Program-made: the position numbers and the translations under genes
In this document: in pieces, positions 3,359 to 48,812 of the stretch
Numbering within the stretch: the first letter of the stretch is position 1
Layout: each line of letters begins with the position of its first letter
Origin: Gemmatimonadaceae bacterium
Lineage (GTDB): Bacteria; Gemmatimonadota; Gemmatimonadetes; Gemmatimonadales; Gemmatimonadaceae
Reading direction: 5' to 3'
Length of the DNA: 50,213 bases
NCBI GenBank assembly: GCA_017881585.1
Contig: JADGQS010000007.1
Coordinates: forward strand, 1-50,213
The notes under the pieces: generated by a model
Database searches by the model: none
What the model saw: the letters and a program-made list of their open reading frames with translations, nothing else
Told to the model about the DNA's origin: nothing

Positions 3359-3499
3359 CCTTTCCACGGATTTCGCGGATTTAGCAGATCTGCAACTACA
3401 AAAAAGACTTTGGGGGAACCGCAACAGCAAAGCCGTTGCGGTTCCCCCAAAGTCTTTGCCGTTGCCTATCTGCGTATATCCGCGAAATCCGTGGAAAGG
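3359..3499. repeat. Nested inverted repeat between gyrB and the convergent VOC gene
   Basis: Two concentric perfect inverted repeats fill the 147-bp gap between convergent genes. The outer arms are 22 bp (3359-3380 and 3478-3499, core ccacggatttcgcgga). The inner arms are 23 bp (3403-3425 and 3435-3457, core ctttgggggaaccgc) with a 9-nt loop. A short run of T (3500-3504) follows on the plus strand, and an A run precedes the inner arm. It could act as a bidirectional terminator, but it is much longer than needed. A decayed relative of the right half appears at about 32043-32110, which suggests a dispersed element. Confidence 0.85.
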
Positions 3500-3502
3500 T
3501 TT

Positions 3503-4384
3503 TTAGGTCGCGCGAACCCGAACCTTCGTCCCCCACGGATCGCTGACCGTTCCGCCGCTCGTGTCGCGTTCGACCGGGTGACCAGCGGACTCCACGCTGC
3601 TGAGCGCCGCTTGCGCATCTGAGGCCGTCGGCACGACGACTTCCCATTCCAGCAGCCGCGCATCGCCGTCGCTCGCCGCGGGCTGCCCCGCCGCCCATGT
3701 GTTCGTGCCGAGATGGTGGTGGTACCCGCCCGCCGCGAGAAACAGCGCGCCGGGATAATTCCACACCATCTTGTCGAAGCCGAGCCCCGCGTGATAGAAG
3801 TGCGAGGCGCGTTCGATATCGCCGACATGAAGATGCACGTGACCGATCACCGTTCCCTTCGGCAGTCCGGTGAACAGCGCGTCACCGCCCGCCGCCATCA
3901 GGTTTTCAGCGTCGAGCGGATCCGTCGCCATCGCAATCTGACGGTCGGCTGTCTTCCAGTTCGCGCGCGGACGATCGGCATAGACCTCGATTCCGAGCCC
4001 GTCGGGATCGGTCAGGTAGAGCGCCTCGCTCACGAGATGATCGGCCATCCCGACGTGCACGCCGAGCGCGGTGACGTGGCGGAGGAAGCGGCCGAGCACG
4101 GCGCGGTCGGGAACGAGGATCGCGAAGTGATAGAGCCCCAGGAGACCGCGGCGCGGGACCGGCGTGGCGCCGGGCCGCTCGCGCAGCCCGACGAGCATCG
4201 AGTCGTCGCCGTGGGCGCCGAGCCGGGCCATTCCGTCGCTGCGGCTGATGGTATGAAGGCCGATGACGTTTTCGTAGTACGCGACCGAGCGGGCCAGGTT
4301 GGAGACCTGCAGCTTCACCGGCCCGAGCCGCGTCGCCTCCGGGAGCCGGTAGCCCCCCGGCGCGACGCCGTAGTCGAGGCTCAC
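3503..4384 (-). CDS. VOC-superfamily protein, catechol-2,3-dioxygenase-like
   Basis: A 293-aa protein with two vicinal-oxygen-chelate modules (about residues 20-135 and 178-290), as in two-domain extradiol dioxygenases of the CatE type. Candidate metal ligands are all in the second module: His184 in GHVHLHVGDI, a His in YHHHLGTNTW (222-224), and Glu in LLEWEVVVP (247 or 249). This supports a metal-dependent enzyme rather than a binding-only protein. The substrate cannot be read from the sequence; ring cleavage of a catechol is the family default, but glyoxalase-like or resistance roles are possible. The gene starts 12 bp after the stop of the phosphorylase gene on the same strand, so they are probably co-transcribed, though no shared pathway is evident. 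Confidence 0.8.
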   Translation of the reverse strand: MSLDYGVAPGGYRLPEATRLGPVKLQVSNLARSVAYYENVIGLHTISRSDGMARLGAHGDDSMLVGLRERPGATPVPRRGLLGLYHFAILVPDRAVLGRFLRHVTALGVHVGMADHLVSEALYLTDPDGLGIEVYADRPRANWKTADRQIAMATDPLDAENLMAAGGDALFTGLPKGTVIGHVHLHVGDIERASHFYHAGLGFDKMVWNYPGALFLAAGGYHHHLGTNTWAAGQPAASDGDARLLEWEVVVPTASDAQAALSSVESAGHPVERDTSGGTVSDPWGTKVRVRAT

Positions 4385-4396
4385 GCTACCGGCACA

Positions 4397-5773
4397 TCAT
4401 CGCGGCATGGCGCTCGAGCCAGCCACACCGGCGGCGCCGAGCGCCGCGAGCTTCTCGACTCCCGCGGCGGTCACGCGATGCGAGATGAGCGGCAGGCGCG
4501 GCATGTCGCCGTCGCCGACGACGAACGCCGCATCGAGCGCCGCGCGCCCGGCCGCCGCGCATGCCGCGTCGCGTGCGAGGATCGTCGCGAGCGGCTGGCC
4601 GCGCGAGACACGATCGCCCGGCTTCGCGAGGAGCTGGAAGCCCACGGTGGGATCGATCAGGTCCGCCATCTTCGTGCGCCCGCCGCCCATCGCCGTGATC
4701 CCCTTGCCCACCGCGCGCGGCTCCACGCGCTGCACGACGCCGTCGCGCGGCGACTCGTACGGCTCGCGGAGCTTCGCGGCGGGAACGACGAGCGAGGGAT
4801 CGTCGCACACGCCGGGATCTCCGCCCTGCGCGATGACGATCTCGCGAAATTTCTCCAATGCCTTTCCGCTCGAGATCGCGCGCTCCAGCCGCGTGCGCGC
4901 GTCGGCGTGATCGTCCGTCACTCCTCCGAGCACGAGCATCTCGGCACCGAACCGCAGCACCAGCTCGCGCAAATCCGGCGGACCGCCTCCCTTCAACGAC
5001 TGCACCGACTCGATGATCTCGTTGGCGTTCCCGCACGCGATGCCGAGCGGCGAGTCCATGTTCGTCAGCAGCGCCACCACCGGACAGTCGTGACGCGCGC
5101 CGAGGGCGATCATCGTCTTCGTGAGCGTCAGGTGGTCGTCGAGCGCCGGGAGGAAGGCTCCCGCGCCGGTCTTCACGTCGAGCACGAGCCCGTTGAGGCC
5201 TTCGGCGAGCTTCTTGCTCATGATGCTCGACGCAATGAGCGGAATGCTTTCCACCGTCGCGGTCGCGTCGCGCAGCGCGTACAGCATACGGTCGGCCGGC
5301 GCAATCTCGCCCGTCTGCCCCATGAGCACGCAACCGATGCGCTCGACCTGCGCCGCGGCCTGAGACAGCGAGAGGCGTGTATGGAATCCCGGAATCGACT
5401 CGAGCTTGTCGAGCGTGCCGCCGGTATGGCCTAGGCCGCGACCGGAGACCATCGGCACCGCAACGCCGCACGCAGCCACGAGCGGGGCGAGCACGATCGA
5501 TACCTTATCCCCGACACCGCCCACGGAGTGCTTGTCCACGCGACGCATCCTGAGGTGCGAGAGTTCGAGCTTCCGCCCGCTCTCGAGCATTCCCTCCGTG
5601 AGCGCGACGGTTTCGTCGTCGGTCAGGCCGCGGAAGTAGATCGCCATGAGCAGCGCCGACACCTGGTAGTCGGGAAGCGTGCCGGCGGCGAGATCGCGCG
5701 CGAACGCGTGCCAGTCGGCGGCGTCGATGTGACCGCCGTCACGCTTGCGCTCGATGAGGTCGCGCAGCGTCAT
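4397..5773 (-). CDS. Pyrimidine-nucleoside / thymidine phosphorylase
   Basis: Cytosolic enzyme that splits thymidine or uridine with phosphate to the base and (deoxy)ribose-1-phosphate. The 458-aa length fits the DeoA/Pdp family. Seen are the phosphate-binding KHSVGGVGDKVS (81-92) and the family signature SGRGLGHTGGTLDK (110-123), followed by the C-terminal domain with GGGRTKMADLIDPTVGF. The ATG at 5773 begins MTLRDLIERKRDGG, which matches the usual N-terminus; a longer in-frame extension upstream has no family features. Whether it prefers thymidine (DeoA) or is broad (Pdp) cannot be decided by eye, so no symbol is given. A thymidine kinase is also encoded in this window (30958-31575). Confidence 0.95.
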   Translation of the reverse strand: MTLRDLIERKRDGGHIDAADWHAFARDLAAGTLPDYQVSALLMAIYFRGLTDDETVALTEGMLESGRKLELSHLRMRRVDKHSVGGVGDKVSIVLAPLVAACGVAVPMVSGRGLGHTGGTLDKLESIPGFHTRLSLSQAAAQVERIGCVLMGQTGEIAPADRMLYALRDATATVESIPLIASSIMSKKLAEGLNGLVLDVKTGAGAFLPALDDHLTLTKTMIALGARHDCPVVALLTNMDSPLGIACGNANEIIESVQSLKGGGPPDLRELVLRFGAEMLVLGGVTDDHADARTRLERAISSGKALEKFREIVIAQGGDPGVCDDPSLVVPAAKLREPYESPRDGVVQRVEPRAVGKGITAMGGGRTKMADLIDPTVGFQLLAKPGDRVSRGQPLATILARDAACAAAGRAALDAAFVVGDGDMPRLPLISHRVTAAGVEKLAALGAAGVAGSSAMPR

Positions 5774-5857
5774 TGACCCGGCGCGGCCGGAGTGCCTACG
5801 TTCTGGAGCTGGCGAAGGAAAAAACGCCAGAGCGAACAATTTCCGGAGCCGTCGCGC

Positions 5858-6625
5858 ATGTGGACTCGTTGGAGGATGGCCAGCCTGCTGGCCGTGGCGT
5901 TCGCCGCGGGGCCGCGGGCCGGTGCGCAGACCGCGAGCGAACGGATCGCCCAGGGAGACCGCGCGTACGCCGACCTGCAGGCCAGGACGGCGCTCGATCA
6001 GTATCGCCTGGCACTCTCGATCGAACCTAAGAGCTACGAGGCATTGTGCAAAGCGTCGCGGGTCGAAGTGGATCTCGCCGAGGGGCTCGACGCCGGTCCG
6101 GATCATGACTCGCTGCAGGCGAACGCGCAGCGGCACGCGGAAGCGGCGATCGCGGTGAATCCGCGGAACGCCGAGGGCCACTTCGCGCTGGCCCGCGCGC
6201 TCGGCCGCAAGGCGCTCAGCCTTGGCACGATGGACCGCATCCGCTACGCCAAGCTGATCCGGCAGGAGGCGCTGGCGGCGTTGAGGTACGATTCCCTGCA
6301 CGCCGGCGCGATTCACGTGATGGGGAGCTGGAACGCCGAGATCATGCGCGTGAACGGGTTCGAGCGCGCATTCGCCAAGCGGTTCCTTGGCGCCGAGGTG
6401 TTCGGCGAAGCGAACTGGGAGGCGGCTCAGCGGCTGATGGAGAAGGCCGTGCGGCTCGACCCCGACCGGCTGGTGCATCATCTCGACCTCGGCTCGATCT
6501 ACGCGGACCGCGGCGACAAGGCCGGCGCGCGCGAACAGTTCCTGTTTGTCATCCGTGCACCGCTGCGCCAATTCAACGATCCGCTCTACAAGAAGAGGGC
6601 GGCCGAGCGCCTCAAGAAGCTTTGA
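5858..6625 (+). CDS. Exported TPR-repeat protein
   Basis: A 255-aa protein with a Sec-type signal (MWTRWRMASLLAVAFAAG...RAGAQ, cleavage probably after AGAQ) followed by helical TPR-like repeats: GDRAYADLQARTALDQYRLAL, then NPRNAEGHFALARALGRKAL and DPDRLVHHLDLGSIYADRGD. The ATG at 5858 is chosen because it creates this signal peptide and has GGAG nine bases upstream. A start 22 codons earlier would put a charged stretch before the signal. The overall fold resembles bacterial relatives of the RMD/TPR proteins, usually protein-interaction modules. It is divergent from the phosphorylase gene. The target is unknown, but export to the periplasm is a reasonable inference. Confidence 0.75.
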   Translation: MWTRWRMASLLAVAFAAGPRAGAQTASERIAQGDRAYADLQARTALDQYRLALSIEPKSYEALCKASRVEVDLAEGLDAGPDHDSLQANAQRHAEAAIAVNPRNAEGHFALARALGRKALSLGTMDRIRYAKLIRQEALAALRYDSLHAGAIHVMGSWNAEIMRVNGFERAFAKRFLGAEVFGEANWEAAQRLMEKAVRLDPDRLVHHLDLGSIYADRGDKAGAREQFLFVIRAPLRQFNDPLYKKRAAERLKKL

Positions 6626-6647
6626 AGAAACCAGAAAGACCCTTGCA

Positions 6648-6691
6648 GCAACCGTGAAGCAACCGTGAAGCAACCGTGAAGCAACCGTGAA
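6648..6691 (+). repeat. Four perfect 11-bp tandem repeats (gcaaccgtgaa)
   Basis: Four exact head-to-tail copies of gcaaccgtgaa at 6648-6658, 6659-6669, 6670-6680 and 6681-6691 fill most of the gap between the TPR gene stop (6625) and the GAF gene start (6698). The last copy ends six bases before the ATG, where a ribosome binding site would be expected. Copy number may vary between strains and could change translation of the GAF gene; this is inference. Confidence 0.95.
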
Positions 6692-6697
6692 CAGGCC

Positions 6698-9498
<2,801 letters not shown>

Positions 9499-9515
9499 AG
9501 GTTTCTTTCACCGTC

Positions 9516-10076: not shown

Positions 10077-10145
10077 CGATCCGCGGCGAAGAGCGACGGT
10101 ACGAACAGCAACGGGCGACGTGTGAGGGGCGACCGTCCCTTTGTC

Positions 10146-10655: not shown

Positions 10656-10691
10656 CTTGGAAGGTATGTCGATGTGAGATTCCGGGGTACC

Positions 10692-10703: not shown

Positions 10704-10727
10704 TAGACACCCGGTAATCGATCGTCC

Positions 10728-10771
10728 GCTGTCTGCCGTCTGCCATCCGCCGTCCGCCGTCCGACCTGTGC
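10728..10771. repeat. Iterated 7-bp words (gtctgcc / atccgcc / gtccgcc)
   Basis: A short stretch made of near-identical heptads (tgtctgccgtctgcc, then atccgccgtccgccgtccg) in the gap between divergent genes. It has no reading frame of its own. It resembles, in style but not sequence, the word islands at 17.1, 22.7, 25.0, 27.1 and 31.6 kb. It might serve as a spacer or have been left by slippage; no function can be assigned. Confidence 0.7.
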
Positions 10772-17131: not shown

Positions 17132-17355
17132 CAGGGGCGAGGGGTGAGACCAGTGGAGAGTGGCGAGGGTGAGTGGGGAGTGGGGAGTGGGGAGGACCGC
17201 AACTGAACTGATCAGATCGAGAAGTTGGGAGATCTCCCAACTTCGCTGCAGGTCTCATCTCTCACGCCTGGCCTCGCCGCTCGCCGCTCCCCGCTCGGTT
17301 CTCCCCACTCCCCACTCACCCTCGCCACTCCCCACTGGTCTCACCCCTCGCCCCT
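17132..17355. repeat. Long imperfect inverted repeat, family A, copy 1
   Basis: The arms at about 17132-17199 and 17296-17355 are nearly perfect reverse complements, differing by one 7-bp word insertion and a couple of substitutions. They are built from words such as gagtgggga, gtggcgag and ggtgagacc. Inside sits a separate 24-bp perfect palindrome (17221-17244, gaagttgggagatctcccaa with cttc). The element ends the divergent region upstream of the PTPS gene. A second copy with the same arm words and a similar spacer lies at 27057-27276. The structure could extrude as a cruciform or act as RNA on either strand. Confidence 0.9.
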
Positions 17356-17356
17356 G

Positions 17357-17647
17357 AACTCGCCACTCCCCGTTCTGACCCTCGTTAAAAGACGAAAGCC
17401 CCATCGGTTTGATGAAGCTTCCGCCCAAAGGAGAACGAAGAGGAGTTTTTGAAGCCCTGTCGAATGTATGAGGCCCTCACCCTGCCTTCCGCCTTCCCGC
17501 CGTGCGGGCGTGACGTCAACAAAGCATATCGGACCCACTCGGAGGACTTATCGGCTCAAAAAGTAAGCCCCTTCGTTCCAGCTGAGAAAGAAAGTAGGTT
17601 GGAGTACATCGAGCGTCAATCAGGGAACACGTAACGGGACGGCCAAA
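17357..17647 (+). other. Non-coding, lower-GC leader of unknown nature
   Basis: This 291-bp stretch between the inverted repeat and the 51-aa membrane gene is visibly less GC-rich than the rest of the window. No conserved protein can be read in it; a short frame from 17449 (TTG, about 61 codons) has no recognisable features. Words such as gacgaaagccccatcgg and cttccgcccaaaggagaacg look like parts of a structured leader, but no known riboswitch class was recognised. It probably carries the promoter and untranslated leader of the gene at 17648. Confidence 0.4.
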
Positions 17648-17803
17648 ATGGACCTTGGAATCATTGCGGCAATTGCCATGCTCGTGTTTTGGGCGATCGC
17701 GACGTTCATGTTCGAGGCGCCGGGATATGTCCACCTGCTGCTCACGGCGGGAGTCTTCCTGCTTATTTGGCGGATAGTGGTGCGAGGGTCGCCGAAAAAG
17801 TGA
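17648..17803 (+). CDS. 51-aa membrane protein, DUF5670/lmo0937-like
   Basis: A small protein with two hydrophobic segments (LGIIAAIAMLVFWAIATF and YVHLLLTAGVFLLIWRIVV) joined by a short turn (MFEAPG) and closed by a basic tail (RGSPKK). This matches the layout of the lmo0937/DUF5670 family of tiny inner-membrane proteins, which often accompany stress responses. The ATG at 17648 is the only start that keeps the first helix. It is preceded by a weak purine stretch. No neighbour is co-directional, so it is monocistronic. Family membership is by pattern, not alignment. Confidence 0.7.
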   Translation: MDLGIIAAIAMLVFWAIATFMFEAPGYVHLLLTAGVFLLIWRIVVRGSPKK

Positions 17804-17811
17804 CTGGGAGC

Positions 17812-17873
17812 TATCAGCTGACCGCTGTCAGTCGATAGCTGTCAGATCGAGGCCTGCAGCCAACAGCCAACAG
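17812..17873. repeat. Word island with agctatcag/ctgtcag repeats
   Basis: Right after the small membrane gene, words gctatcagctgaccgctgtc, gtcgatagctgtcag and cagccaacagccaacag repeat in direct and inverted form. A similar but poorer set (ctgatag, ctgacag, gatcag) lies at 48759-48787. The remaining bases to 18010 contain one half-copy of the gaatgcgggatgcgg word (17933-17947) described for family B and otherwise nothing recognisable. Confidence 0.6.
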
Positions 17874-18010
17874 ACTAGAGGCCATCTCGCAAACCCGGCG
17901 CCTTTGAGTGGAAGAGTGGGGAGAGGCGAGATGAATGCGGGATGCGGAAGTTCACCCCGCTGCATTCCCTCACCACACGCTTCAGCATTGGTTTGTGAGA
18001 CGTGCTCTAG

Positions 18011-22715: not shown

Positions 22716-22892
22716 CGATGCAGGGTGCAGAAGAGGAATGCGGGATGAGGGGTAAGGGTTGAGATCTGAGTTTGGATTGGGGCACTGGGACCAACAGCCA
22801 CTCCCCACTCCTCTCTACTCCGCATCCCGCAGCCGAACTCATCTCTCGCTACTTGCCCCGCATCCCGCATTCCTCACCTGCACCCTGCATCG
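22716..22892. repeat. Long imperfect inverted repeat, family B, copy 1
   Basis: Arms of 41 bp (22716-22756 and 22852-22892) match at 37 positions; core words are gatgcagggtgcag and ggaatgcgggat. The element fills much of the 350-bp gap between the HerA-like and SbcD genes. Between the arms are loose repeats of ctccccactc and catcccgc. After the right arm a run of ccgatctccccactcccatc words continues to about 22950. A second member of the family is at 31611-31799 and half-copies are at 17933-17947 and 38976-39009. The sbcD promoter must lie in or next to it. Confidence 0.88.
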
Positions 22893-24943: not shown

Positions 24944-24944
24944 G

Positions 24945-25058
24945 ACGATCGAAGATGGAAGATGGAAGACCGAAGACCCGGTACTAAAGTTACTGCCGTC
25001 GTCCGCCTTTCGTTTTCGATCTTCCATCTTCGATCTTCCATCTTCGATCTTCGATCGT
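24945..25058. repeat. Inverted repeat of gaagatc words, family C
   Basis: This element lies between the NurA-like and HerA-like genes. The left part (gacgatcgaagatggaagat and following, from 24945) and the right part (ending atcttcgatcgtc at 25058) are reverse complements. Both are built from iterated gaagatgga/cgaagatc words. The spacer (about 24980-25014) is gc-mixed with no gene. Related gaagaccgaagac words exactly fill the 31-bp gap between the two ABC-ATPase genes at 47900-47930. The element occupies the expected ribosome-binding region of the HerA-like gene, leaving its start uncertain. Confidence 0.82.
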
Positions 25059-25062
25059 CACT

Positions 25063-26073
25063 CTACGCGCCCACGAGGGCGCGAAGATATTCCTCGCAAT
25101 CGCGTATGCCGTACGCCATGGTGCTCCAGCGTTTGTCGGGAAGCGACACGGGCGCGCGCTCCGCGAGGACCCAGCGGGACACTTCGTCGGCGCGTTCGGC
25201 GCTCCACGACTCGCGGGCGATCTCGACGCGGACCAGCCCGAAGAACGGATCGCGACCGCGCGCGTCGCGCAGCCGCAGGTACCAGCTCGCGACCGTCGTG
25301 CGGCGCGGCGAACGGATTTCGAACGAAGTCGTCCGGGCGCCGGCCTCGAGCCCGGTCACGACCGTGAGCGAGCCGCCGGTCGCGTACAGCGTGCGATGCG
25401 ATTTCACCACGCCGACGGCGAACATGCTCTGCGATGCGCGGCCGGCACCCGAGATGCCGCCGTCGACGAAGAGCGGCTCGGCTTCCGATGCGCACCACGA
25501 CTCCGCGAGCGCGATCTCGAGTTCCTCGCGGCGCCGCTGCACGGCGGTGCGCGCGAGCGCGAGAAGCTCCATCGGATGCCGCGCGAGCGCGGCGTCGCAG
25601 TCTGCGAAGGTGTCGACGATCTCCATTCGGGTGCTGCGCAGCCACTCGAGTTCGCGGGTGCCGATCAGCGAGACGGGCGCATAGAGGGCGCGCGCGATGC
25701 GCGGCGCACCGCGCCAGACGTGCAGGATGCGGTCGCTGCGCCGGCGGACGACGGCCGCGACGGTTCCGTGCACGACCGGCGCGCCGGCGCGTCCGCGCAG
25801 GATGACCTGGCTCGCCTGGATGCCGTCGAGAAACGCGGCGAATGCCGCGACAGGCTCACCGACACTTCGAACGGAAAGCAGATCGCCCTCGATCGAAGCC
25901 GCGGCCTCGAGCCGCGGCGGCGTCGCGTCGGCCGGCGTGAGCTCGAGCGCGGGACCGGCCGACTCGACGATCGAGAGCCGCATTTCGTCACTGGGAATCG
26001 GCGCATTCCGGAGTGCGCGCAGCGCCTCCCGGATGCTTGTTCCGCCCTCGGCCGCATCGTACGTTGAAGCCAT
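25063..26073 (-). CDS. NurA-like nuclease
   Basis: A 336-aa protein called NurA-like because of its gene pairing with HerA and its motifs: an N-terminal strand with a candidate catalytic Asp in PLFVDGGISGAG, and a C-terminal acidic segment DPFFGLVRVEIARES with DEVSRWVL, both typical of RNase H-fold NurA proteins. NurA is a 5'-3' nuclease that works with HerA on double-strand ends. The ATG at 26073 faces the start of a lipoprotein gene, the two start codons overlapping within CATG. Sequence similarity is not strong by eye, so the family call rests partly on neighbourhood. Confidence 0.65.
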   Translation of the reverse strand: MASTYDAAEGGTSIREALRALRNAPIPSDEMRLSIVESAGPALELTPADATPPRLEAAASIEGDLLSVRSVGEPVAAFAAFLDGIQASQVILRGRAGAPVVHGTVAAVVRRRSDRILHVWRGAPRIARALYAPVSLIGTRELEWLRSTRMEIVDTFADCDAALARHPMELLALARTAVQRRREELEIALAESWCASEAEPLFVDGGISGAGRASQSMFAVGVVKSHRTLYATGGSLTVVTGLEAGARTTSFEIRSPRRTTVASWYLRLRDARGRDPFFGLVRVEIARESWSAERADEVSRWVLAERAPVSLPDKRWSTMAYGIRDCEEYLRALVGA

Positions 26074-27046
26074 GCGCTCCCTCTCTCGCGTGCCGCGTGC
26101 CACCACCAAACTCACCGCCGTCATTCTACTCTCGGCGGCGGCGTGCGAGAAGTCAAAACCGGCGAAGAATTCCGCGGACGTGATAGTTCCCGAAGGTGTC
26201 GCCGCGCTGGATCTCGCCGGCAAGCCGCAGATCCTCTTCCAGATCTTCGGCGATCGCGAGAGTCCGCTCATGATGCCGATCGCGGCGATCGTGAAGGGCG
26301 CGATCAAGCCGATCGGGCTCACGCTGAGCGGCTGGAAGCAGCTCGATGCCCAGTACATGGCGGCGGGAACGAAGTATCCGTTCCATGTGGAGGGCGGCGA
26401 CCCGGGCGAATTGACCGTCACGCACGACACGGCGTATTCGCTCCCCGGGTGCAGCGCGGTCAAGCCGATAGCCGTCGTGCAGCTCGCGTTCAAGACGCCG
26501 CACGCCGATCCCACGGTCGAGTTCCTCGCGTCGAGCGGGGCGGCCGTGCCGCCGCGCCCGGAGAGCGGGAAGCTCATGACGTCGGCGGACATCGAGAAGC
26601 TCGCGCGCCGCATCGGTCATGCGGCCGGAATGCGCGCGAACCTCTCGCCGGCGGAACTCGATTCGCTCGACTTCCACGCGCGCATGATCGCGACCGGCGC
26701 ATCCCGGGCGCCGACGATGCTCATCTCGTTCATCGACCCGAACTCAGGCAGCGCGCGGGGCGGCGGATGGACCGGCCACGTGTTCGTCCTCGCCGACAGC
26801 GGCGCGAACGGCTACGAGGCGACCTACATACATGCCGTGAAGGGCGACGCGAGGACCGTGGAGTTCCAGCGGCTGGTGAACCACGTGGACTTCAATGAGG
26901 ACGGAACGGACGAGATCATCGTGGAGGCGTGGAAGTACGGGTCGGGCAGTGATCTCGTGGTATTGAGTTTCAAGGCGGGGAGATGGCAGGAAGTTCTGCG
27001 GGTGCGGCAGGAGTGGTGTCTCGACTCTCCTAAGGACAAGAAGTGA
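26072..27046 (+). CDS. Predicted lipoprotein of unknown function
   Basis: A 324-aa protein with a basic n-region (MRSLSRVPRATTK), a hydrophobic core and a likely lipobox (SAAAC, Cys25). The mature part has no enzyme motif known to me. Its last third contains NHVDFNEDGTDEIIVEAWKY, similar to FG-GAP/EF-hand-like calcium loops (D-x-N-x-D-G-x-D-E), found in surface propeller repeats, here as a single copy. The start at 26072 overlaps the opposite NurA-like start; no better ATG exists, and the signal peptide supports it. The gene is divergent from the repair cluster and ends at a large inverted repeat. Confidence 0.7.
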   Translation: MRSLSRVPRATTKLTAVILLSAAACEKSKPAKNSADVIVPEGVAALDLAGKPQILFQIFGDRESPLMMPIAAIVKGAIKPIGLTLSGWKQLDAQYMAAGTKYPFHVEGGDPGELTVTHDTAYSLPGCSAVKPIAVVQLAFKTPHADPTVEFLASSGAAVPPRPESGKLMTSADIEKLARRIGHAAGMRANLSPAELDSLDFHARMIATGASRAPTMLISFIDPNSGSARGGGWTGHVFVLADSGANGYEATYIHAVKGDARTVEFQRLVNHVDFNEDGTDEIIVEAWKYGSGSDLVVLSFKAGRWQEVLRVRQEWCLDSPKDKK

Positions 27047-27056
27047 GATAGGAGTG

Positions 27057-27276
27057 GCGAGACCAGTGGGGAGTGGCGAGGCTGAGTGGGAAGTGGGGAG
27101 AACCGAGTGGCGAGCGGGGAGCGGAAAGAGCGGCAAGTGAGTGAGAAGAAGAGAAGTGGCGAGATCTCCCCGCTTCTCAGCAGGTCTCAGCTCTCGCCAC
27201 CTTTCTCGCCACTTCCCGCTCGCCACTCGGTTCTCCCCACTTCCCACTCACCCTCGCCACTGGAGACTGGTCTCGC
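27057..27276. repeat. Long imperfect inverted repeat, family A, copy 2
   Basis: Arms of 64 bp (27057-27120 and 27213-27276) match at about 58 positions and consist of the same words as the element at 17132-17355: gagaccagtgg, gtggcgagg, tgagtggg, agtggggaga. The spacer also keeps gagatctccc and gcaggtctca found in copy 1, so the two are homologous over the whole length rather than only similar in composition. It lies between convergent genes (lipoprotein and the Lrp-type gene). A terminator role is possible but does not explain the conserved spacer. Confidence 0.9.
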
Positions 27277-27292
27277 CCCTCGCCCCTGCCGT

Positions 27293-31575: not shown

Positions 31576-31610
31576 GTCGGGTTGAGGAGAGGTGAGAGAG
31601 ACGAGATTTC

Positions 31611-31799
31611 ACCCAATGCAGAATGCAGAGAAGGAATGCGGGATGCGGAGAAGACGCGAGAACCGAGCTGGAATCGGAAGGCAGAAAGGGCGCGGCCTCG
31701 CATGAGCCGCGCCCTTCGTCGTTGCCAAATCCCGCATCCTTCTCATCTCTCAGATCTCCTCCCGAATCTCGCATTCCTTCTCTGCATTCTGCATTGGGT
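31611..31799. repeat. Long inverted repeat, family B, copy 2, with inner GC hairpin
   Basis: Perfect 30-bp arms (31611-31640 and 31770-31799) contain the words aatgcagaatgcagagaagg and ggaatgcg. In the middle is a separate perfect 11-bp hairpin (31686-31696 and 31706-31716, aagggcgcggc / gccgcgccctt) with a 9-nt loop and no T-run. It follows tdk and precedes a convergent gene remnant, so it could end tdk transcription. The arms match those of the element at 22716-22892 in word content. Confidence 0.92.
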
Positions 31800-31819
31800 C
31801 GTGGTCTCGCCCCTCCCCT

Positions 31820-31969
31820 CTATTTCTTGACCAGCACCGACTCAAAGTAGGAAATCGCCCTCGGATCGCCCGACTGCCCGAGCCAGAAGATCGACTGCTT
31901 CCTGATCTTCGGATCCTTGCTGTTCTTGGCAATGTCGAGCAGAGCGGGGATGCCCCATCGACGTGCCAC
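31820..31969 (-). pseudogene. C-terminal remnant of a HEAT-repeat protein
   Basis: Reading on the minus strand from 31969 gives VARRWGIPALLDIAKNSKD, then PKIRKQSIFWLGQSGDPRA and ISYFESVLVKK followed by a stop. The last 40 residues look like the final HEAT/PBS-lyase-type repeat and C-terminus of a larger HEAT-repeat protein (pattern D-P-x-x-R-x-x-A-x-x-x-L-G). Upstream the frame meets a stop at about 32005 and no further repeat can be read in the other frames. It is most simply a gene whose main part was deleted. A short real gene is less likely, given the lack of a start signal. Confidence 0.5.
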
Positions 31970-32042: not shown

Positions 32043-32160
32043 GCAGTTCCCCCAAGAGGTGGTATCCGGTAATTGTCGCCCTTCGTCTTCCGTGAAAATC
32101 CGTGGAAAAGCTCTTGAAACCCCGCCGCCGGAGCCGGCCGCCGGAGCCGGCCGCCGGGCG
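32043..32160. repeat. Decayed element copy and GC-rich 13-bp tandem repeat
   Basis: The stretch 31970-32163 holds no gene. At 32043-32060 (cagttcccccaagagg) and 32091-32110 (cgtgaaaatccgtggaaaag) are sequences like the right-hand inner and outer arms of the nested repeat at 3359-3499, in the same order, which suggests a decayed half-copy. From 32124 the unit gccgccggagccg occurs twice in tandem (32124-32136, 32137-32149) with a partial third, just after the end of the pilin operon. Confidence 0.6.
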
Positions 32161-38920: not shown

Positions 38921-38975
38921 GAACGCGACGCGCGCGGTCTACGTTTCAGTTCTCGAACGGATGATCGTCCGCTCC

Positions 38976-39009
38976 CGAATCCCGCATTCCTTTTCTGCAT
39001 CCTGCATCG
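38976..39009. repeat. Half-copy of family B element in the gcvH leader
   Basis: The words aatcccgcattcc, tctgcat and cctgcatcgc reproduce the right arm of the family B repeats (22852-22892 and 31770-31799), but no left arm is present. It ends ten bases before the gcvH start, so it forms part of its untranslated leader or promoter. Confidence 0.7.
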
Positions 39010-39420: not shown

Positions 39421-39537
39421 CGAGTAATCGGTCGTTGGTGATTGGTTGTTGGTAATTAGCCCCGGCCACGAATCCGTCCAAGCGGATCGCAGCCGGGGCT
39501 GATTACTAAAGACCAACGACCAATGACCGATTACTCG
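39421..39537. repeat. Imperfect inverted repeat between convergent gcvH and gcvP
   Basis: Arms of 46 bp (39421-39466 and 39492-39537) match at about 39 positions. They are made of cgttggt/gattggt and gagtaatcgg words; the tip is a GC-rich stem (agccccggc / gccggggct) with a short loop. The position between two convergent stops suits a bidirectional terminator, although the outer arm is far longer than usual. Confidence 0.9.
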
Positions 39538-42437: not shown

Positions 42438-42620
42438 GGATCGAAGCTCCTTCTCGGCGCGACTGAACGCGCCAGTTGATCGCAGGAAAGTCAGATGTCA
42501 ACGCATGAAAACTAATGAGACAGACAAGCGCAGGTACGGAGCGCGATCAGCAGCCACCTCCCAGCCCCGTGCATCGTTCTCTAGATTGCGGTATGTCCGA
42601 ACCTTCAGAGGGCCAACTTT

Positions 42621-42776
42621 ATGTCCTACAGATCCGAAGCCGCGCGGGTCGGGATCAGTTTCGGCAGCGCGCTCGCGATCGCGATTTCGTGGAGCCAGCA
42701 TCACTCCATCATTTGGGCGATCATCCAGGGCTTCTTCAGCTGGCTGTACGTGATCTACTACGCCATTACGCGCTGA
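42621..42776 (+). CDS. 51-aa hydrophobic small protein
   Basis: A short frame starting MSYRSEAARVGISFGSALAI, continuing AISWSQHHSIIWAIIQGFFS and ending WLYVIYYAITR. It shows one or two membrane-embedded stretches and the W-A-I-I-x-G-F-F-S-W-L-Y-V-I-Y pattern that I recognise from small conserved hypothetical proteins in several phyla; no function is known. A second overlapping frame from 42593 reads as charged low-complexity protein and is less likely. It sits 26 bp ahead of the LipM-like gene and may share its transcript. Codon choice fits a real gene: hydrophobic residues are kept throughout. Confidence 0.65.
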   Translation: MSYRSEAARVGISFGSALAIAISWSQHHSIIWAIIQGFFSWLYVIYYAITR

Positions 42777-42801
42777 CCCGCTGAATCGCATCAGGACAAC
42801 C

Positions 42802-43563
42802 GTGCGCTGGCGATTCCTCGACTCGGGCGACCTCGACGGCGCCGAGCAGATGTCGCTCGACGCGGGGCTGATGGACCGCGCGCGCGAGACGGGTGAAGCA
42901 TTGCTGCGGGTGTACGGATGGTCGCGTCCGACACTCTCATTCGGGCGGCACGAGTCCGTGCGCGGCCTGTTCGACCCTGACGTGCTGGAACTCGAAAACG
43001 TGGGCGCGGTGCGGCGACCGACCGGTGGGCGCGTGCTGATGCACCACCACGAGGTGACGTACAGCGTGACGGCGCCCGCTCCGGAGAACGAGCGGTTGAA
43101 GGAGAGCTATCGCCGGATCAACGCGATGCTCATGGCCGCGATCGCGCGGCTGGGCGTGCAGGTGGCCGCGGCTCCAGTTTCAACACCGCGCCGTCCGGGC
43201 GGAGCCGCCTGCTTCGCGGAGCCCTCCGCGGGAGAGCTGGTGGTCGACGGACGCAAGCTCGTGGGGAGCGCGCAGGTGCGTGAGCGCGGCGCGCTGCTGC
43301 AGCACGGCTCCATCCTGATCGACGACGACCAGCCGCGCATCGCCGAGCTCGCGGCGCAGCCGCTGACGCCGGCGCTGCCGGCGGCGACGCTGCGGGCGTG
43401 CCTCGGACGCTCCCCGACGTACGATGAGGTGCGCGACGCGCTCGGCGCCGCGCTCGCGGAGGCGGAGGGCGAGCCGTCGGGGCTCGACGCCGATGAAGCC
43501 GCACGATTTGCCGCGCCGCATCGCGCTCGATTCTCGAGCGCGGAGTGGACGTGGCGCATTTAG
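42802..43563 (+). CDS. Lipoate/octanoate-protein ligase family, LipM-like
   Basis: A 253-aa member of the BPL/LplA/LipB family. Motifs are RRPTGGR (71-77), HHHEVTYSV and the catalytic-lysine region VVDGRKLVGSAQ (Lys152). Cys137 in AACFAEPSAGE lies where LipM-type octanoyltransferases carry their acyl-accepting Cys, followed by the same E-L-V-V-x-G-R-K order; this favours octanoyl transfer to GcvH over ATP-dependent lipoate ligation. The GTG at 42802 is used. gcvH and gcvP lie within 4 kb, so lipoylation of GcvH is the likely task. An LplA-type reaction cannot be ruled out by eye. Confidence 0.82.
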   Translation: MRWRFLDSGDLDGAEQMSLDAGLMDRARETGEALLRVYGWSRPTLSFGRHESVRGLFDPDVLELENVGAVRRPTGGRVLMHHHEVTYSVTAPAPENERLKESYRRINAMLMAAIARLGVQVAAAPVSTPRRPGGAACFAEPSAGELVVDGRKLVGSAQVRERGALLQHGSILIDDDQPRIAELAAQPLTPALPAATLRACLGRSPTYDEVRDALGAALAEAEGEPSGLDADEAARFAAPHRARFSSAEWTWRI

Positions 43564-43597
43564 CCGGATAATGTTGGCCGTGTCTCTACGGAGCCCA

Positions 43598-45265: not shown

Positions 45266-45268
45266 CGA

Positions 45269-46243
45269 GTGCGCCGTTTTCTCCTCGCGCGCGGCGCGCA
45301 GGCTCTCGCAGTCATCGCGCTCGTCGCGACGCTCGCCTTCACGCTCGTGCACCTCGCGCCCGGCGATCCGTTCGCCGCCAGCCTCGACGATCCCACCAAC
45401 ACCGCCGCGCTGCACGCGCAGCAGATGCATCGCTGGGGATACGACCAGCCCCTGCCGGTGCAGTACCTGAAATGGCTCGGCAATCTCGCGCGCGGTGAAT
45501 TCGGCTGGTCGCATTCCCGGAATCGACGCGTGGCCGACGTGCTGCTCGAGACCGTTCCGCGCACATTCCTCCTCATGGGCGCGGCACTCGTCGCCGGCGT
45601 GCTCGCGGGCCTCGCGTTGGGCACGTGGCAGGCCGCGCGCCGCGGAACGCCCGCCGAACGCGCGTCGGGTACGCTCGCGACCGCGGTGCTCTCCGTGCCC
45701 GAGTTCCTCGTCGCGCTGGCGGCGCTCGCGCTTCCCGCAGCACGCTGGCACTGGTTTCCCGTCAGCGGCATCGCGGACCCCGCCATGCACGACTCCATGA
45801 GCGCGATCGGTCGCGCGTGGGACGTCACCCGCCATCTGGTGCTCCCCGCGGGCACGCTGGCGCTGCTCACCGCCGCGGGCGTCTCGCGCTACCATCGCAG
45901 CGCGATGCTCGCCATGCTGCCGGAGGAATTCGTCCGCACGGCGCGAGCGAAAGGAGCCGGTGAGTACACCGCGGTCGTGCGGCACGCGCTGCGCAACGCG
46001 CTCGGTCCACTCATCACGATCGTCGGACTGCTCCTCCCCACGCTGTTCGGCGGCGCCGTGTTCGTGGAAACGATCTTCAGCTGGCCCGGTGTTGGGCGAA
46101 TGATGGTCGAGGCGGTCGGCGGCAACGACTATCCGCTCGTCCTCGCCGGCGTGCTCGTGGGGAGTGTGCTCGTCGTGCTCGGCAGCGCGCTCGCCGACGT
46201 GCTCTCGGCGCTCGCGGACCCGCGCCTGCGGATCGAAGCGTGA
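45269..46243 (+). CDS. Peptide ABC transporter permease (DppB-like)
   Basis: First inner-membrane permease of the transporter, 324 aa with about six transmembrane helices. N-terminal segment LARGAQALAVIALVATLAFTL, then LAPGDPF, a DppB signature. The cytoplasmic EAA loop that contacts the ATPases is PEEFVRTARAKGAGEYTAVV with G at the usual place. GTG start three bases after the substrate-binding gene stop. The stop overlaps the second permease start (GTGA). Confidence 0.94.
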   Translation: MRRFLLARGAQALAVIALVATLAFTLVHLAPGDPFAASLDDPTNTAALHAQQMHRWGYDQPLPVQYLKWLGNLARGEFGWSHSRNRRVADVLLETVPRTFLLMGAALVAGVLAGLALGTWQAARRGTPAERASGTLATAVLSVPEFLVALAALALPAARWHWFPVSGIADPAMHDSMSAIGRAWDVTRHLVLPAGTLALLTAAGVSRYHRSAMLAMLPEEFVRTARAKGAGEYTAVVRHALRNALGPLITIVGLLLPTLFGGAVFVETIFSWPGVGRMMVEAVGGNDYPLVLAGVLVGSVLVVLGSALADVLSALADPRLRIEA

Positions 46244-47046
46244 AGTTCGCCGCCGCGGTCCTCGTGCTGTTCGTGGTCGTGGCCGTCGCGGCTCCGGCGA
46301 TCGCTCCGCACGATCCGCGCGCGACGCCGCAGTCGGAGACGCAAAAGAACCTGCCGCCGTCCGGCGCGCATCCGTTCGGCACCGATCAATACTCGCGCGA
46401 CGTGCTGAGCCGGGTCATTTATGGCGCGCGCGTGTCGCTCGGCGTGGCGGTTGTCGCCGTCATGCTCGCGCTCACGCTCGGCGCGGCCATCGGCGCCGTC
46501 GCCGGGTACGCCGGCGGGTGGACGGACATCATCTGCATGCGCGTCGTCGACGCGATGCTGTCGGTGCCGCGCGTGTTGCTCCTGCTCGTGCTCGTGGCGA
46601 GCACGGGACCGCTCACGGTCGGCGGAATCATCGTGCTGCTCGGTTGCACCGGGTGGCCCGGCACGAGTCGCCTCGTGCGCGGCGAGGTGCGCCTGCTGAA
46701 GGAACGCGACTACGTGCTCGCGTCGCGCGCGACGGGAACGCCCGAATGGCGCGTGTTCGTGTTGCACGTGCTGCCCGGCCTCGTGCCGCAGCTGCTCGTG
46801 ACGGGAACGCTCGCGCTCGCAACGGTGATCCCGCTCGAGGCCGGCCTCTCGTTCCTCGGGCTGGGCGTCCAGCCGCCGACCGCAAGCTGGGGCAACATCA
46901 TCAGCGACGCGGCCGGGCGTCCCGGCGACACGTGGTGGGTCGTGCTCTTCCCCGGCCTGGCGATCGTGTGCACTGTGCTTGCGGTGAACACCATCGGCGA
47001 ACGGCTGCGCGAGCGCATCGACCCGCGAGGGAGGTCGCGTACATGA
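46240..47046 (+). CDS. Peptide ABC transporter permease (DppC-like)
   Basis: Second permease, 268 aa. Features are the N-terminal helix AAAVLVLFVVVAVAAPAIAP, the DppC signature HPFGTDQYSRDVLSRVIYGA, and the EAA loop LLKERDYVLASRATGTPEWR. Near the end, GLSFLGLGVQPPTASWGNII is characteristic of DppC/OppC. GTG start at 46240, four-base overlap with the first permease. Confidence 0.95.
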   Translation: MKFAAAVLVLFVVVAVAAPAIAPHDPRATPQSETQKNLPPSGAHPFGTDQYSRDVLSRVIYGARVSLGVAVVAVMLALTLGAAIGAVAGYAGGWTDIICMRVVDAMLSVPRVLLLLVLVASTGPLTVGGIIVLLGCTGWPGTSRLVRGEVRLLKERDYVLASRATGTPEWRVFVLHVLPGLVPQLLVTGTLALATVIPLEAGLSFLGLGVQPPTASWGNIISDAAGRPGDTWWVVLFPGLAIVCTVLAVNTIGERLRERIDPRGRSRT

Positions 47047-47092
47047 CCCCGAGAGCCGTTGCTCCCATGATCCCTCCGCAGAGGCCGGCGAC

Positions 47093-47899
47093 GTGACCGC
47101 CCCCGTCCTCCTCGACGTACGCGATCTCGTCGTGACGTACGTGTCCGACGCGGGAGCGGTGCGCGCGGTGGACGGCGTTTCGTTCGCCGTGCATGCCGGC
47201 GAGACCGTCGCACTCGTGGGTGAGTCGGGGTGCGGCAAGACGTCCGTCGCGTTCGCCCTGATGCGCGTGATGGCGCCCGGCGCGCGCATCGGCGCAGGGA
47301 GCCGCATCACGTTCGACGGCGCCGACCTGCTCGCGCTCGACGAGCGCGCCATGTGCGACCTGCGTGGCCGGAAGATCTCGATGATCTTCCAGGAACCGGC
47401 CTCCGCGCTCAACCCCGTGATGAAGGTCGGCGCGCAGGTCGCCGAGGTCGCGTTGTTGCACGGCGAGCGATCAAAACGGGCGGCATGGGACCGCGCGGTC
47501 GCCATGCTCGACCGCACCGGGATCGCCGACGCGGCGCGGCGAGCGCACCAGTACCCGCACGAGCTCTCGGGCGGCATGCGGCAGCGCGTGCTGATCGCCA
47601 TGGCCCTGATGATGCGGCCCGCGCTGGTCATTGCCGACGAGCCGACGTCCGCACTCGACGTGACCGTGCAGGCGCAAATCCTCGACCTCCTCCGCGACCT
47701 GCAGCGTGAAACGGGAATGGCGGTGCTGTTCATCACGCACGACTTCGGCGTCGTGGCGGAGTTGTGCTCGCGCGCGATGGTGATGCGCGCCGGGCGGATC
47801 GTCGAGGACGCGCCGGTCGACCGGATCTTCCACGCGCCGGCCGACCCCTACACAGCCGAGTTGCTGCGCGCGGTTCCACGCCTGACGGCCGACCGATGA
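47093..47899 (+). CDS. Peptide ABC transporter ATPase (DppD-like)
   Basis: Cytosolic ATPase, 268 aa. Walker A GESGCGKT (43-50), Q-loop in MIFQEPASALNPVMKVG, signature LSGGMRQRV (from 158), Walker B ALVIADEPTSALDVTVQAQI and the switch His in FITHDFGVV. It lacks the long C-terminal extension with Cys residues that many DppD/OppD proteins carry (their usual length is about 325), so no iron-sulphur cluster is expected. GTG start at 47093, 46 bp after the permease. Confidence 0.94.
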   Translation: MTAPVLLDVRDLVVTYVSDAGAVRAVDGVSFAVHAGETVALVGESGCGKTSVAFALMRVMAPGARIGAGSRITFDGADLLALDERAMCDLRGRKISMIFQEPASALNPVMKVGAQVAEVALLHGERSKRAAWDRAVAMLDRTGIADAARRAHQYPHELSGGMRQRVLIAMALMMRPALVIADEPTSALDVTVQAQILDLLRDLQRETGMAVLFITHDFGVVAELCSRAMVMRAGRIVEDAPVDRIFHAPADPYTAELLRAVPRLTADR

Positions 47900-47930
47900 A
47901 AGAAGACCGAAGACGGAAGACCGAAGGCCG
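47900..47930 (+). repeat. Family C word run filling the dppD-dppF gap
   Basis: The complete 31-bp gap between the two ATPase genes is aagaccgaagacggaagacc with flanking repeats of the same words. These are the words seen in the element at 24945-25058. It replaces the sequence where a ribosome site would be expected (though gaag/ggaag words may serve as one). Confidence 0.8.
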
Positions 47931-48761
47931 ATGAGCGATACTCTCATCTCGGTGAGCCATCTCACGCATGAGTTTGCTGCGCGCCGCACGATGTTCGGCG
48001 CGCCGCAAGCGACGATCAGGGCGGTGAACGACGTGAGCTTCGACATCGCGCGCGGCGAGACGCTCGCGCTCGTCGGCGAGTCCGGGTGCGGAAAAACCAC
48101 GACCGGGCGCGCGATCCTGCGATTGATCGAGCCGACCTCCGGCCACGTGACGTTCGACGGGATCGACGTGCTGACACTCCAACGCGAGCCGCTGCGACGG
48201 CTCCGGCGCCGGATGCAGGTCGTCTTTCAGGATCCCCACACCTCGCTCGACCCGCGGATGAGAGTGGGCCGCACCGTTCGCGAGGGTATCGAGGCGCACG
48301 AACTCGCGGAGGGCGCCGAGGCGGATGCGCGCGTGGCGCGCACCCTCGAGGAGGTCGGGCTTCGCGCGAGCGACGCCGCGAAACTCCCGCACGAGTTCTC
48401 CGGCGGACAGCGCCAGCGCATCGCGATCGCCCGTGCGCTCGCCGTCGAGCCGGAGTTCGTGGTGCTCGACGAGGCCGTGTCCGCGCTCGACGTGACCGTG
48501 CAGGCGCAGGTGCTTGCCCTGCTGATGCAGTTGCAGCGCGATCGCGGCCTCACCTATCTGTTCATCGCGCACAATCTCGCGGTCGTCGAGCGGATCGCCA
48601 CGCGCGTCGCCGTGATGTACCGTGGCCGGATCGTCGAGATCGCGGCGGCCGCGGCGTTGTATTCATCGCCGCAGCACGGGTACACAAAGGCGTTGCTGTC
48701 GGCGGTTCCGGTTCCGGATCCGCGAGTGAAGAAGAAACGCATCGTTTGGGATGGAAACTGA
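47931..48761 (+). CDS. Peptide ABC transporter ATPase (DppF-like)
   Basis: Second ATPase of the peptide transporter, 276 aa. Walker A GESGCGKT (49-56), Q-loop VVFQDPHTSLDPRMRVG, signature FSGGQRQRIAIARAL, Walker B FVVLDEAVSALDVTVQAQV, and switch His in FIAHNLAVV. It ends with YSSPQHGYTKALLSAVPVPDP, typical of DppF/OppF. The segment DEAVSALD has Ala where Pro is usual (DEPVSALD), a neutral-looking change. The stop lies inside a short word island (48759-48787). Confidence 0.94.
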   Translation: MSDTLISVSHLTHEFAARRTMFGAPQATIRAVNDVSFDIARGETLALVGESGCGKTTTGRAILRLIEPTSGHVTFDGIDVLTLQREPLRRLRRRMQVVFQDPHTSLDPRMRVGRTVREGIEAHELAEGAEADARVARTLEEVGLRASDAAKLPHEFSGGQRQRIAIARALAVEPEFVVLDEAVSALDVTVQAQVLALLMQLQRDRGLTYLFIAHNLAVVERIATRVAVMYRGRIVEIAAAAALYSSPQHGYTKALLSAVPVPDPRVKKKRIVWDGN

Positions 48762-48812
48762 TAGCCGTCGCCTGACAGCGATCAGACAACAACCCTCCGC
48801 AATCACCCGCTC

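Follow-up and report, generated by a model that had tools for sequence, protein, structure and literature searches.

Word-built intergenic hairpins in a Gemmatimonadaceae genome form dispersed palindromic families associated with S23 genes

The REP and REPIN sequences are palindromic extragenic repeats that, as described in PMC3733652, lie mostly in tandem and convergent gaps. Their cognate gene, RAYT, is reported in PMC3116915 to be present in a single copy for each repeat family, to carry its own repeats on both sides and not to move by itself. In the intervening sequences (IVSs) of 23S ribosomal RNA (rRNA) genes, an S23 gene lies in an element with complementary borders that has been called selfish and sporadic (PMC4990558). 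Here, we analysed a stretch of 50,213 nucleotides (nt) from a Gemmatimonadaceae bacterium (assembly GCA_017881585.1, contig JADGQS010000007.1, positions 1 to 50,213 of the forward strand), referred to as the window, whose intergenic regions contain hairpins with arms composed of short repeated words. These hairpins include members of palindromic families that are dispersed throughout the source genome, and several carry the same arms that also surround genes of the S23 family (PF05635, 23S_rRNA_IVP). In our assessment, they are probably REPIN/RAYT-like families in which S23 serves as the partner gene, and the pairing of repeat and gene suggests a new kind of repeat-gene partnership.

Cyanobacterial heptameric tandem repeats go by the name STRR. 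Intergenic repeats with a period of 7 nt have been described from distant phyla, with TAACTGA units in the Beggiatoaceae and GGGNATC units in Xanthomonas and Nostoc (PMC4679880, PMC4692102), and three heptanucleotides are mentioned for Calothrix (PMC4692102). The arm words of the hairpins in the source genome (3.09 Mb in 240 contigs, 90% complete) are likewise mostly 7 nt long. Our main sample of gaps, taken from the window and every tenth contig (92 gaps, 17,098 bp; genes called with a simple codon-score script, so that boundaries are approximate), contained 250 exact 6-mer self-matches at a lag of 7 nt, compared with 2 in one dinucleotide shuffle. The lags 7, 14, 21 and 28 were strongest and 11, 13 and 22 weak, the neighbouring lags 6 and 8 showed no excess, and the lag-7 rate in gaps was 30 times the coding rate. 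Since the window had been picked in the preliminary description of this DNA, figures for the window and for the contigs outside it are also given apart: there were 81 lag-7 matches in the window alone (20 shuffles: mean 2.0, maximum 6) and 169 outside it (20 shuffles: mean 4.7, maximum 10). The excess thus persists outside the window, indicating that the period-7 signal is not due to its choice.

The preliminary description had assigned word vocabularies to the intergenic gaps of the window and considered them to form, in most cases, self-complementary arms that are themselves internally repetitive. Its words and coordinates were correct. The internal repetition is borne out by the lag-7 excess, except that the hairpins at 3.4 and 39.4 kb contain little exact period 7 (0 and 1 lag-7 matches), and strong pairing is present at about half of the sites rather than most. 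When the inverted-repeat (IR) scores of 14 word sites were compared with those of 100 dinucleotide shuffles in two runs per site, seven sites proved to be strong hairpins whose score was reached by none of the shuffles in either run (3356-3502, 17132-17356, 22716-22892, 24944-25059, 27052-27281, 31588-31821 and 39421-39537). Pairing was no better than chance at 10.7, 32.1, 38.97 and 47.9 kb (14 to 100 of 100 shuffles reached the score) and weak at 17.8, 17.9 and 48.8 kb (5-6, 0-1 and 4-9 of 100 shuffles), so that roughly half of the word sites are arrays or arms without a strong partner. For the family A palindromes and the arms around S23 genes described below, a fixed IR score of at least 44 was used, with 36 as a looser cut-off for the S23 arms.

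Strongly folding gaps lie chiefly behind genes. In the main sample, the minimum free energy (MFE) z-score was below -3 for 11 of 21 gaps between convergent genes, 5 of 40 between tandem genes and 1 of 29 between divergent genes, the single divergent case being the 17.1 kb hairpin; outside the window alone, the figures were 7 of 14, 4 of 28 and 0 of 22 (206 of 213 gaps folded overall; the loci L065 and L067, which lack any G or C, were treated as masked). The stems are found at gene ends, often, as judged by eye, with an inner terminator-like stem within the hairpin. This placement suggests that the hairpins may be kept as terminators for both sides.

Recurrence of the words outside the window had been set beforehand as a test of the earlier claim that they form a general, genome-wide system, and it was observed for both families used as queries: BLAST searches of the source genome returned 60 matches for family B (22.7 kb query) and 66 for family A (17.1 kb query, about 25 places), self-matches and separate arms being counted in both cases. 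Nineteen of the 22 family A copies that we read (2 in the window, 20 elsewhere in the source genome) are palindromes with an IR score of at least 44; the other three are L286, in which an S23 gene lies between the arms, and L290 and L292, which were cut around a one-arm match. An alignment of 95 columns without an inner gap accommodates 39 of the 44 possible arms, of which two are truncated at the end; the remaining five were dropped for low score, including one that shows a tandem run (L285). The outer ends differ in unit number. The repetition had been called slippage-like, a term that the gap-free inner alignment makes unfit for the present change of the arm core. Family A thus comprises copies whose sequence is largely fixed and bears a heptamer pattern of old date, rather than products of independent slippage, and pure slippage was discounted on the basis of the gap-free alignment (five low-score arms excluded). 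Arms of the same hairpin are 0.795 identical, compared with 0.775 for permuted partners (p 0.014), and in no more than 3 of 36 cases is an arm closest to its own partner, so that the arms look as though they were drawn from a genome-wide pool. Among 118 genomes of the bacterial family searched, family A is strong only in the source genome and its congener G001, with two more being marginal.

The link to S23 became apparent at L036:9017, where a 772-bp stretch found only in the source genome contains, between family B arms, an open reading frame (ORF) that belongs to PF05635. By GcvP, the nearest named relatives of the source genome are metagenome-assembled Gemmatimonadaceae genomes (72%). The genus comparison covered 18 genomes, the source genome included, of which 14 are of good quality. 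PF05635 gave 57 matches in 14 of them: 7 in the source genome, all outside the window, 10 each in G001 and G008, 11 in G016 and 0 to 4 in the others. We searched the flanks of 55 of these matches, using exact match coordinates and leaving out G008:C96 and G006:C184, and 36 of them proved to be bordered by inverted arms within 350 bp that scored at least 44, compared with 1 of 117 control genes of similar size, all from the source genome (p 6e-22); at the looser score of at least 36, arms surround 41 of 55. The S23-borne arms belong to several families, among them family A (L286, L325), family B (L036, L379, L380, L382), the GTTAACCACTAACTGTTGGTCGG arm of the gcvH gap in G008 and G016 (L364, L367), the 17.1 kb words of G016 (L377), the word of source locus L032 (L374, L376) and CTGACAG/CAACGGC (L348). 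At L340, L344, L345, L359, L365, L366 and L369, S23 is accompanied by short or weak word arms (scores 30-43), and these loci may be decayed elements. In the main sample, 6 of 11 hairpin gaps match an S23-borne arm, as against 8 of 79 non-hairpin gaps. In the sample of the source genome, which is biased towards family B, this applies to 33 of 43 hairpin gaps, 2 of the 33 containing S23 itself.

The arm family tracks the relatedness of the S23 proteins. Among 1317 pairs of S23 genes from different genomes, the 24 pairs that share arms have a mean identity of 0.71, compared with 0.34 (p 7e-15), and arms are shared by 19 of 44 pairs with at least 60% identity but only 1 of 942 below 40%. This relationship holds at different sites too: after removal of all 96 pairs whose outer flanks match, whether they occupy one site or not, 12 arm-sharing pairs remained, with a mean identity of 0.57 compared with 0.32 for the other 1209 (p 9e-8). 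In 14 of the 22 pairs examined for this, S23 genes of one lineage have a common site, indicating that the gene is often inherited in place while the palindromes scatter. Across the 18 genomes, S23 number rises with hairpin density (rho 0.77, p 2e-4, without phylogenetic correction; N runs excluded from the hairpin count), with no hairpin in 57.9 kb of the four S23-null genomes and 18 in 196.4 kb of the rest.

Between close relatives, the hairpin gaps keep their place and pairing and lose their sequence. We compared the source genome with 922 kb of the approximately 4.1 Mb (22%) of G001, whose flanking DNA is about 94% identical. Of 247 stretches sought, 67 had a usable orthologous match and 180 did not; the 247 include 18 family A sites that had been chosen for being hairpins. 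A hairpin was present in both genomes at 17 of the 67 gaps (6 of them such family A sites), with a median identity of 0.66, in the source genome only at 3 and in G001 only at 2, while 11 gaps contained arrays (identity 0.76) and 34 neither (0.93); the difference in identity between hairpin gaps and the rest is significant (p 1.9e-6). Of 22 hairpin gaps, 17 are thus paired in both genomes and 5 in one only, so that the other refuting condition set beforehand, unpaired unique sequence at these gaps in related strains, mostly fails. Preservation of pairing during sequence turnover is supported. Several gaps have exchanged one family for another: where the source genome has family A, G001 has family B at 27.1 kb and L280, and family B also stands in for a CTGACAG-type hairpin at L066 and for another word at L032. 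Relative to its flanks, the interior has the opposite orientation in 5 of the 17 hairpin pairs and the same orientation in 3, the other 9 being undecidable; the 5 inversions among 8 decidable pairs support a DNA-level exchange between arms. The locus L040:8658 of the source genome resembles a palindrome deleted to its tips. The convergent gap between gcvH and gcvP was read in 16 genus genomes (the source genome and 15 congeners) and contains arm words that differ by lineage; by eye, most genomes keep a GC stem, which stands alone in G005, G009 and G015, and G002 has neither. Both this gap and L040:1174, on a different contig, have GTCATTGG-type words in the source genome and GTTAACC-type words in G001, and the same word pair at two gaps on different contigs suggests a lineage-wide change. 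Such rapid swapping and inversion of gap content would be a little-noticed source of 3'-end variation between close relatives. In one of the inverted cases, an S23 gene at L049:18288-18960 of the source genome has the opposite orientation in G001 (L296) within collinear flanks; this locus is an inverted element with short arms.

Compared with the systems introduced above, the hairpins resemble REPIN/RAYT in being many-copy extragenic palindromes behind genes and in having a cognate gene amid its own repeats at a fixed site, a role taken here by S23 (arms around 36 of 55 genes; same site in 14 of 22 pairs). They differ in that their arms are word-built and long (about 50-120 nt) and in that the partner is PF05635 rather than an HUH transposase. 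PF01797 (Y1_Tnp, RAYT) had no match in the source genome, which is 90% complete, whereas 5 of 14 control genomes were positive. The preliminary description was thus right that these are not ordinary REP sequences, and the RAYT that it suggested looking for elsewhere in the genome was not found; since the defining transposase was tested for and is not found in the source genome, we do not class the system as REPIN/RAYT. A retron-like reverse transcriptase, which it also named as something to look for, was not found either, RVT_1 being missing from 17 of 18 genus genomes, among them the source genome and all 14 of good quality, and present in one. With these searches, of the source genome for RAYT and of the genus for a reverse transcriptase, either was rejected or at least weakened as the driver. 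The 23S rRNA IVSs share the S23 ORF inside complementary stem arms, but the elements of the window lie between protein genes rather than in 16S or 23S rRNA genes, several families occur per genome, many copies are gene-free and the arms consist of words. With miniature inverted-repeat transposable elements (MITEs) they share terminal inverted repeats, the whole element being an inverted repeat. PF05635 is also reported to resemble Avd of diversity-generating retroelements, with a structural alignment suggesting homology (PMC10053308). However, RVT_1 is missing from 17 of 18 genus genomes, and a search of the Protein Data Bank (PDB) with a profile built from 16 S23 proteins gave 2gsc and 2rld but, at E values up to 1, no Avd structure; two further weak matches, both to designed TIM barrels, were set aside. 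The nearest solved relative, XCC0516 (2gsc), is described as a pentameric ring of four-helix bundles from Xanthomonas campestris (PMC4990558), a species in which heptamer repeats have been described (PMC4692102). The open-licence literature yielded, among the matches listed, no link between S23/IVP and dispersed palindromes, which is no proof of absence.

The hairpins share with the heptameric simple sequence repeats (SSRs) and STRRs the enrichment of tandem 7-nt units in intergenic DNA, which we also found in samples of Cyanobacteria and Bacteroidota. They differ in that the repeats are direct in those reports, as far as these describe them, whereas here the units make up the arms of dispersed, S23-linked palindromes; no description of this palindromic, gene-linked form was found among the matches listed in the open-licence literature searched. 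PF05635 is present in 20 of 29 genomes of other groups, a set that does not include the genome of locus L092, including Cyanobacteria (5 of 6), Bacteroidota (8 of 10), Verrucomicrobia (2 of 2), one Nitrospira, one Calditrichaeota and others. In a flank test of 30 of the 101 matches (best per genome), inverted arms scoring at least 44 surrounded 5 of 30 S23 genes, compared with 1 of 67 controls, i.e. single genes between gaps from the loci L087-L166 (p 0.010), and arms scoring at least 36 surrounded 10 of 30, compared again with 1 of 67. The arm words include GAGTGCT in Nostoc, GGAAGAA and GGGGACA in Chlorogloeopsis and GGAGATA in Komarekiella. The lag-7 signal is clear in the cyanobacterial sample and weaker in that of the Bacteroidota, and no excess was seen in the samples of Myxococcota/Deltaproteobacteria and Proteobacteria.

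Taken together, the hairpins form dispersed palindromic families, each with arms made of its own words, mostly with period 7, and a preferred position behind genes, chiefly in convergent gaps. Families A, B and at least three more are each tied to a chromosomal S23 gene between the same arms. This gene often keeps its place from one species to the next, whereas palindromes that have its arms but no gene are spread over the genome in the way that REPINs are around a RAYT gene. Dispersal, exchange of families, inversion of interiors and the association with S23 are thus observed. In the mechanism that we propose, S23 would move or homogenise these palindromes. The protein, whose solved relative is a ring of four-helix bundles, may bind the hairpin arms and promote annealing or recombination between palindromes at different sites, after which host recombination and hairpin processing could copy, invert, replace or delete them. 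More speculatively, breakage and repair at extruded hairpins, perhaps involving SbcCD, might produce inversion, deletion and ectopic replacement together, although the SbcCD gene encoded in the window itself may be there by coincidence. The lack of RVT_1 in 17 of 18 genomes and of Y1 in the source genome argues for a DNA-level process that uses host enzymes, and neither a reverse transcriptase nor a Y1 transposase appears to be needed. A palindrome in a convergent gap may in addition terminate transcription from both sides, which would account for the retention of position and pairing. Should S23 be the partner, the repeat system would be run by a ring of four-helix bundles in place of a transposase. 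A bolder version, which we put forward tentatively as a possibility rather than an expectation, holds that S23/IVP proteins are dedicated spreading or homogenising factors of a widespread, hitherto unrecognised class of word-built palindromes in several phyla, and that they work on hairpin DNA with neither a known transposase nor a known reverse transcriptase. In that case, the orphan heptamers of cyanobacteria, Bacteroidetes and Xanthomonas would be the arms of such elements, and the S23-bearing 23S rRNA IVSs copies that landed in rRNA genes. Two orphan facts, the unexplained heptamer repeats of many bacteria and the unexplained S23/IVP proteins, so far familiar as oddities of 23S rRNA genes and as relatives of Avd, would possibly be one. 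If true, hairpins between genes could be interpreted in several phyla, and the proposal is testable by gene deletion.

Several observations weigh against S23 as the partner gene. The arm threshold of 44 is missed by 19 of the 55 S23 genes that were tested in the genus and by 25 of the 30 from other phyla, and the samples of Verrucomicrobia and Nitrospira show no lag-7 excess despite their S23 genes. Five of the 11 hairpins in the main sample, those at 3.4 and 39.4 kb among them, match no S23-borne arm. By the same measure of sharing, 25 of the 44 S23 pairs with at least 60% identity have no arms in common, and 12 of the 24 arm-sharing pairs represent one site in two species, so that the shared arms are simply inherited. 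In the relationship with hairpin density, which has no phylogenetic correction, the four S23-richest genomes (7 to 11 copies) are mutual relatives and account for 17 of the 18 hairpins counted. At the gcvH gap, the IR scores of genomes with and without S23 are only weakly separated (p 0.045). In a second set of gaps, which was chosen by family B matches and is hence biased, the preference for convergent gaps is less pronounced (10 of 18, compared with 29 of 67 tandem and 8 of 31 divergent gaps). Inspection by eye of the few presence/absence sites revealed no clean insertion with a target duplication; gaps are mostly replaced, and empty sites are rare. Moreover, all genomes are drafts with N runs within some hairpins, and S23 could be a passenger.

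This last idea, in which S23 is a selfish gene that settles in existing palindromes, as in rRNA stems, because insertion there is harmless, is the most serious of the alternatives, albeit an unlikely one. The known 23S rRNA IVSs have a comparable layout (PMC4990558), and S23 genes of a given lineage often keep their position as the palindromes turn over. However, a passenger would not readily account for arm families that follow S23 relatedness even at different sites (0.57 compared with 0.32 in the 12 pairs), for the sharing of arms by only one of the 942 pairs under 40% identity or for the rise of S23 number with hairpin density, a trend without phylogenetic correction. An assembly artefact at the repeats of draft genomes would fit the N runs inside some G001 hairpins, but it is very improbable, given that both flanks are syntenic where the content differs, that the inverted S23 element lies between arms of only about 24-27 nt, which reads should span, and that the arms in the gcvH gap vary by lineage among many separate assemblies.

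The hairpins could also be intrinsic terminators of the ordinary kind that work in both directions, their arms having been lengthened by slippage of heptamers as selection favoured pairing, with S23 present by chance. Their preference for convergent gaps, the inner GC stem that, by eye, stays constant at the gcvH gap while the arms differ, the plain stem alone in G005, G009 and G015 and the varying unit number of some arrays all agree with this scenario, but collinear family arms that recur genome-wide cannot arise by independent slippage, and neither wholesale family swaps nor S23 genes between the same arms are expected. We consider it improbable overall: the genome-wide families refute it as a full account, whereas termination is likely the selective reason for the retention of the hairpins. 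It is just as improbable that template switching copies one arm into the other within each hairpin, with SbcCD shaping the outcome. In 16 of 16 orthologous hairpin comparisons, the arms are more alike within the hairpin than between species, with loss of the left/right history, a result that is biased because the hairpins were picked by arm score and that stems from comparisons sharing genomes; the interiors inverted in 5 of 8 decidable pairs and the palindrome-deletion remnant CTTTCCGTGGAAAGG point in the same direction. Copying of arm into arm, which the preliminary description had put forward, is nevertheless not supported as the main driver, given that just 3 of 36 cases in family A have the partner as the closest arm and that within-hairpin identity hardly exceeds the permuted value (0.795 and 0.775), and it leaves dispersed families and swaps unexplained. 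Slightly less probable still are conventional MITEs or REPs moved by an unrecognised DNA transposase. Size, palindromic form and intergenic placement would fit, as would an element at 17875-18010 with 21-nt terminal repeats, but the source genome has no Y1 match (other transposase families were not searched), target duplications were not seen by eye at the sites read and the gene between the arms is S23.

The individual sites of the window illustrate the range of these structures; an Rfam scan of the window returned no family at the gathering threshold. The hairpin at 3356-3502, in the convergent gap between gyrB (+) and a glyoxalase-like gene (-), consists of CCACGGATTTCGCGGAT words around an inner GGGGGAACnGC stem (IR score 91, 0 of 100 shuffles; MFE z -18.8); the same word family occurs in another unit order in G001 and G016 and is missing from G008. 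Family A is represented by two palindromes. That at 17132-17356 has GTGGCGAG/AGTGGGGAG arms (17132-17187 and 17301-17356, 98% identical) with an inner GAGAAGTTGGGAGATCTCCCAACTTC, and its arms match those around the S23 genes L286 and L325; that at 27052-27281 (0 of 100 shuffles) is replaced by family B-type palindromes in both G001 and G016. The family B hairpins comprise one at 22716-22892 with GATGCAG..GAATGCGGGATGCGG arms (22716-22775 and 22833-22892), which match the arms around the S23 gene L379, and one at 31588-31821, downstream of the thymidine kinase gene, which encloses a terminator-like GC stem (about 31684-31720). The GAAGATC/GAAGACC hairpin at 24944-25059 has arms that are 94% identical (0 of 100 shuffles), and the hairpin at 39421-39537, between gcvH (+) and gcvP (-), combines GTNNTTG words with an inner GCCCCGGC stem (IR score 60, 0 of 100 shuffles).

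Unpaired sites include a CGTCCGC/GTCTGCC heptamer array at 10720-10765 (+; IR score attained by 63 and 70 of 100 shuffles), whose gap is 99% identical in G001 and whose array is missing from G016 and G008, and a GAAGACC array at 47894-47931 (+; 73 and 80 of 100 shuffles), whose gap is 98% identical in G001. Two others are lone arms, one CCACGGATTTTC-like at 32088-32111 (15 and 14 of 100 shuffles for the stretch) and one of family B at 38974-39009 (-), 5' of gcvH. Weak pairing characterises a CTGATAG/CTGTCAG and CAACAGC array at 17804-17874 (+; 5 and 6 of 100 shuffles), which is retained in G001, and a CTGACAG remnant at 48757-48790 (4 and 9 of 100 shuffles). The element at 17875-18010, a stretch of about 136 bp missing from G001, has 21-nt terminal inverted repeats (CTAGAG..CTCTAG, 81% identity), an IR score of 22 (1 and 0 of 100 shuffles) and clean edges, with no target duplication by eye. 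A reading of this stretch as a high-copy MITE was discounted, its terminal motif being present in only 4 of 272 loci examined.

Some neighbouring features deserve mention. Next to the fast-changing 17.1 kb hairpin, about 200 nt at 17420-17640 (AGGAGAACGAAGAGGAGTTTTTGAAGCCCTG..) are near-identical in the source genome, G001 and G016 and possibly represent an undescribed structured RNA or the leader of a 51-amino-acid (aa) ORF at 17648-17803. This ORF is conserved at 94% in G001 and 86% in G016 and is therefore probably a real small gene. Two long ORFs, both without a Pfam match, overlap on opposite strands at 25063-26613 and 25697-27046. At 6647-6691, directly before a gene, the 11-mer AGCAACCGTGA is repeated four times without a mismatch, with about one perfect copy there in G001; in contrast to the hairpins, this repeat is a case of ordinary tandem slippage.

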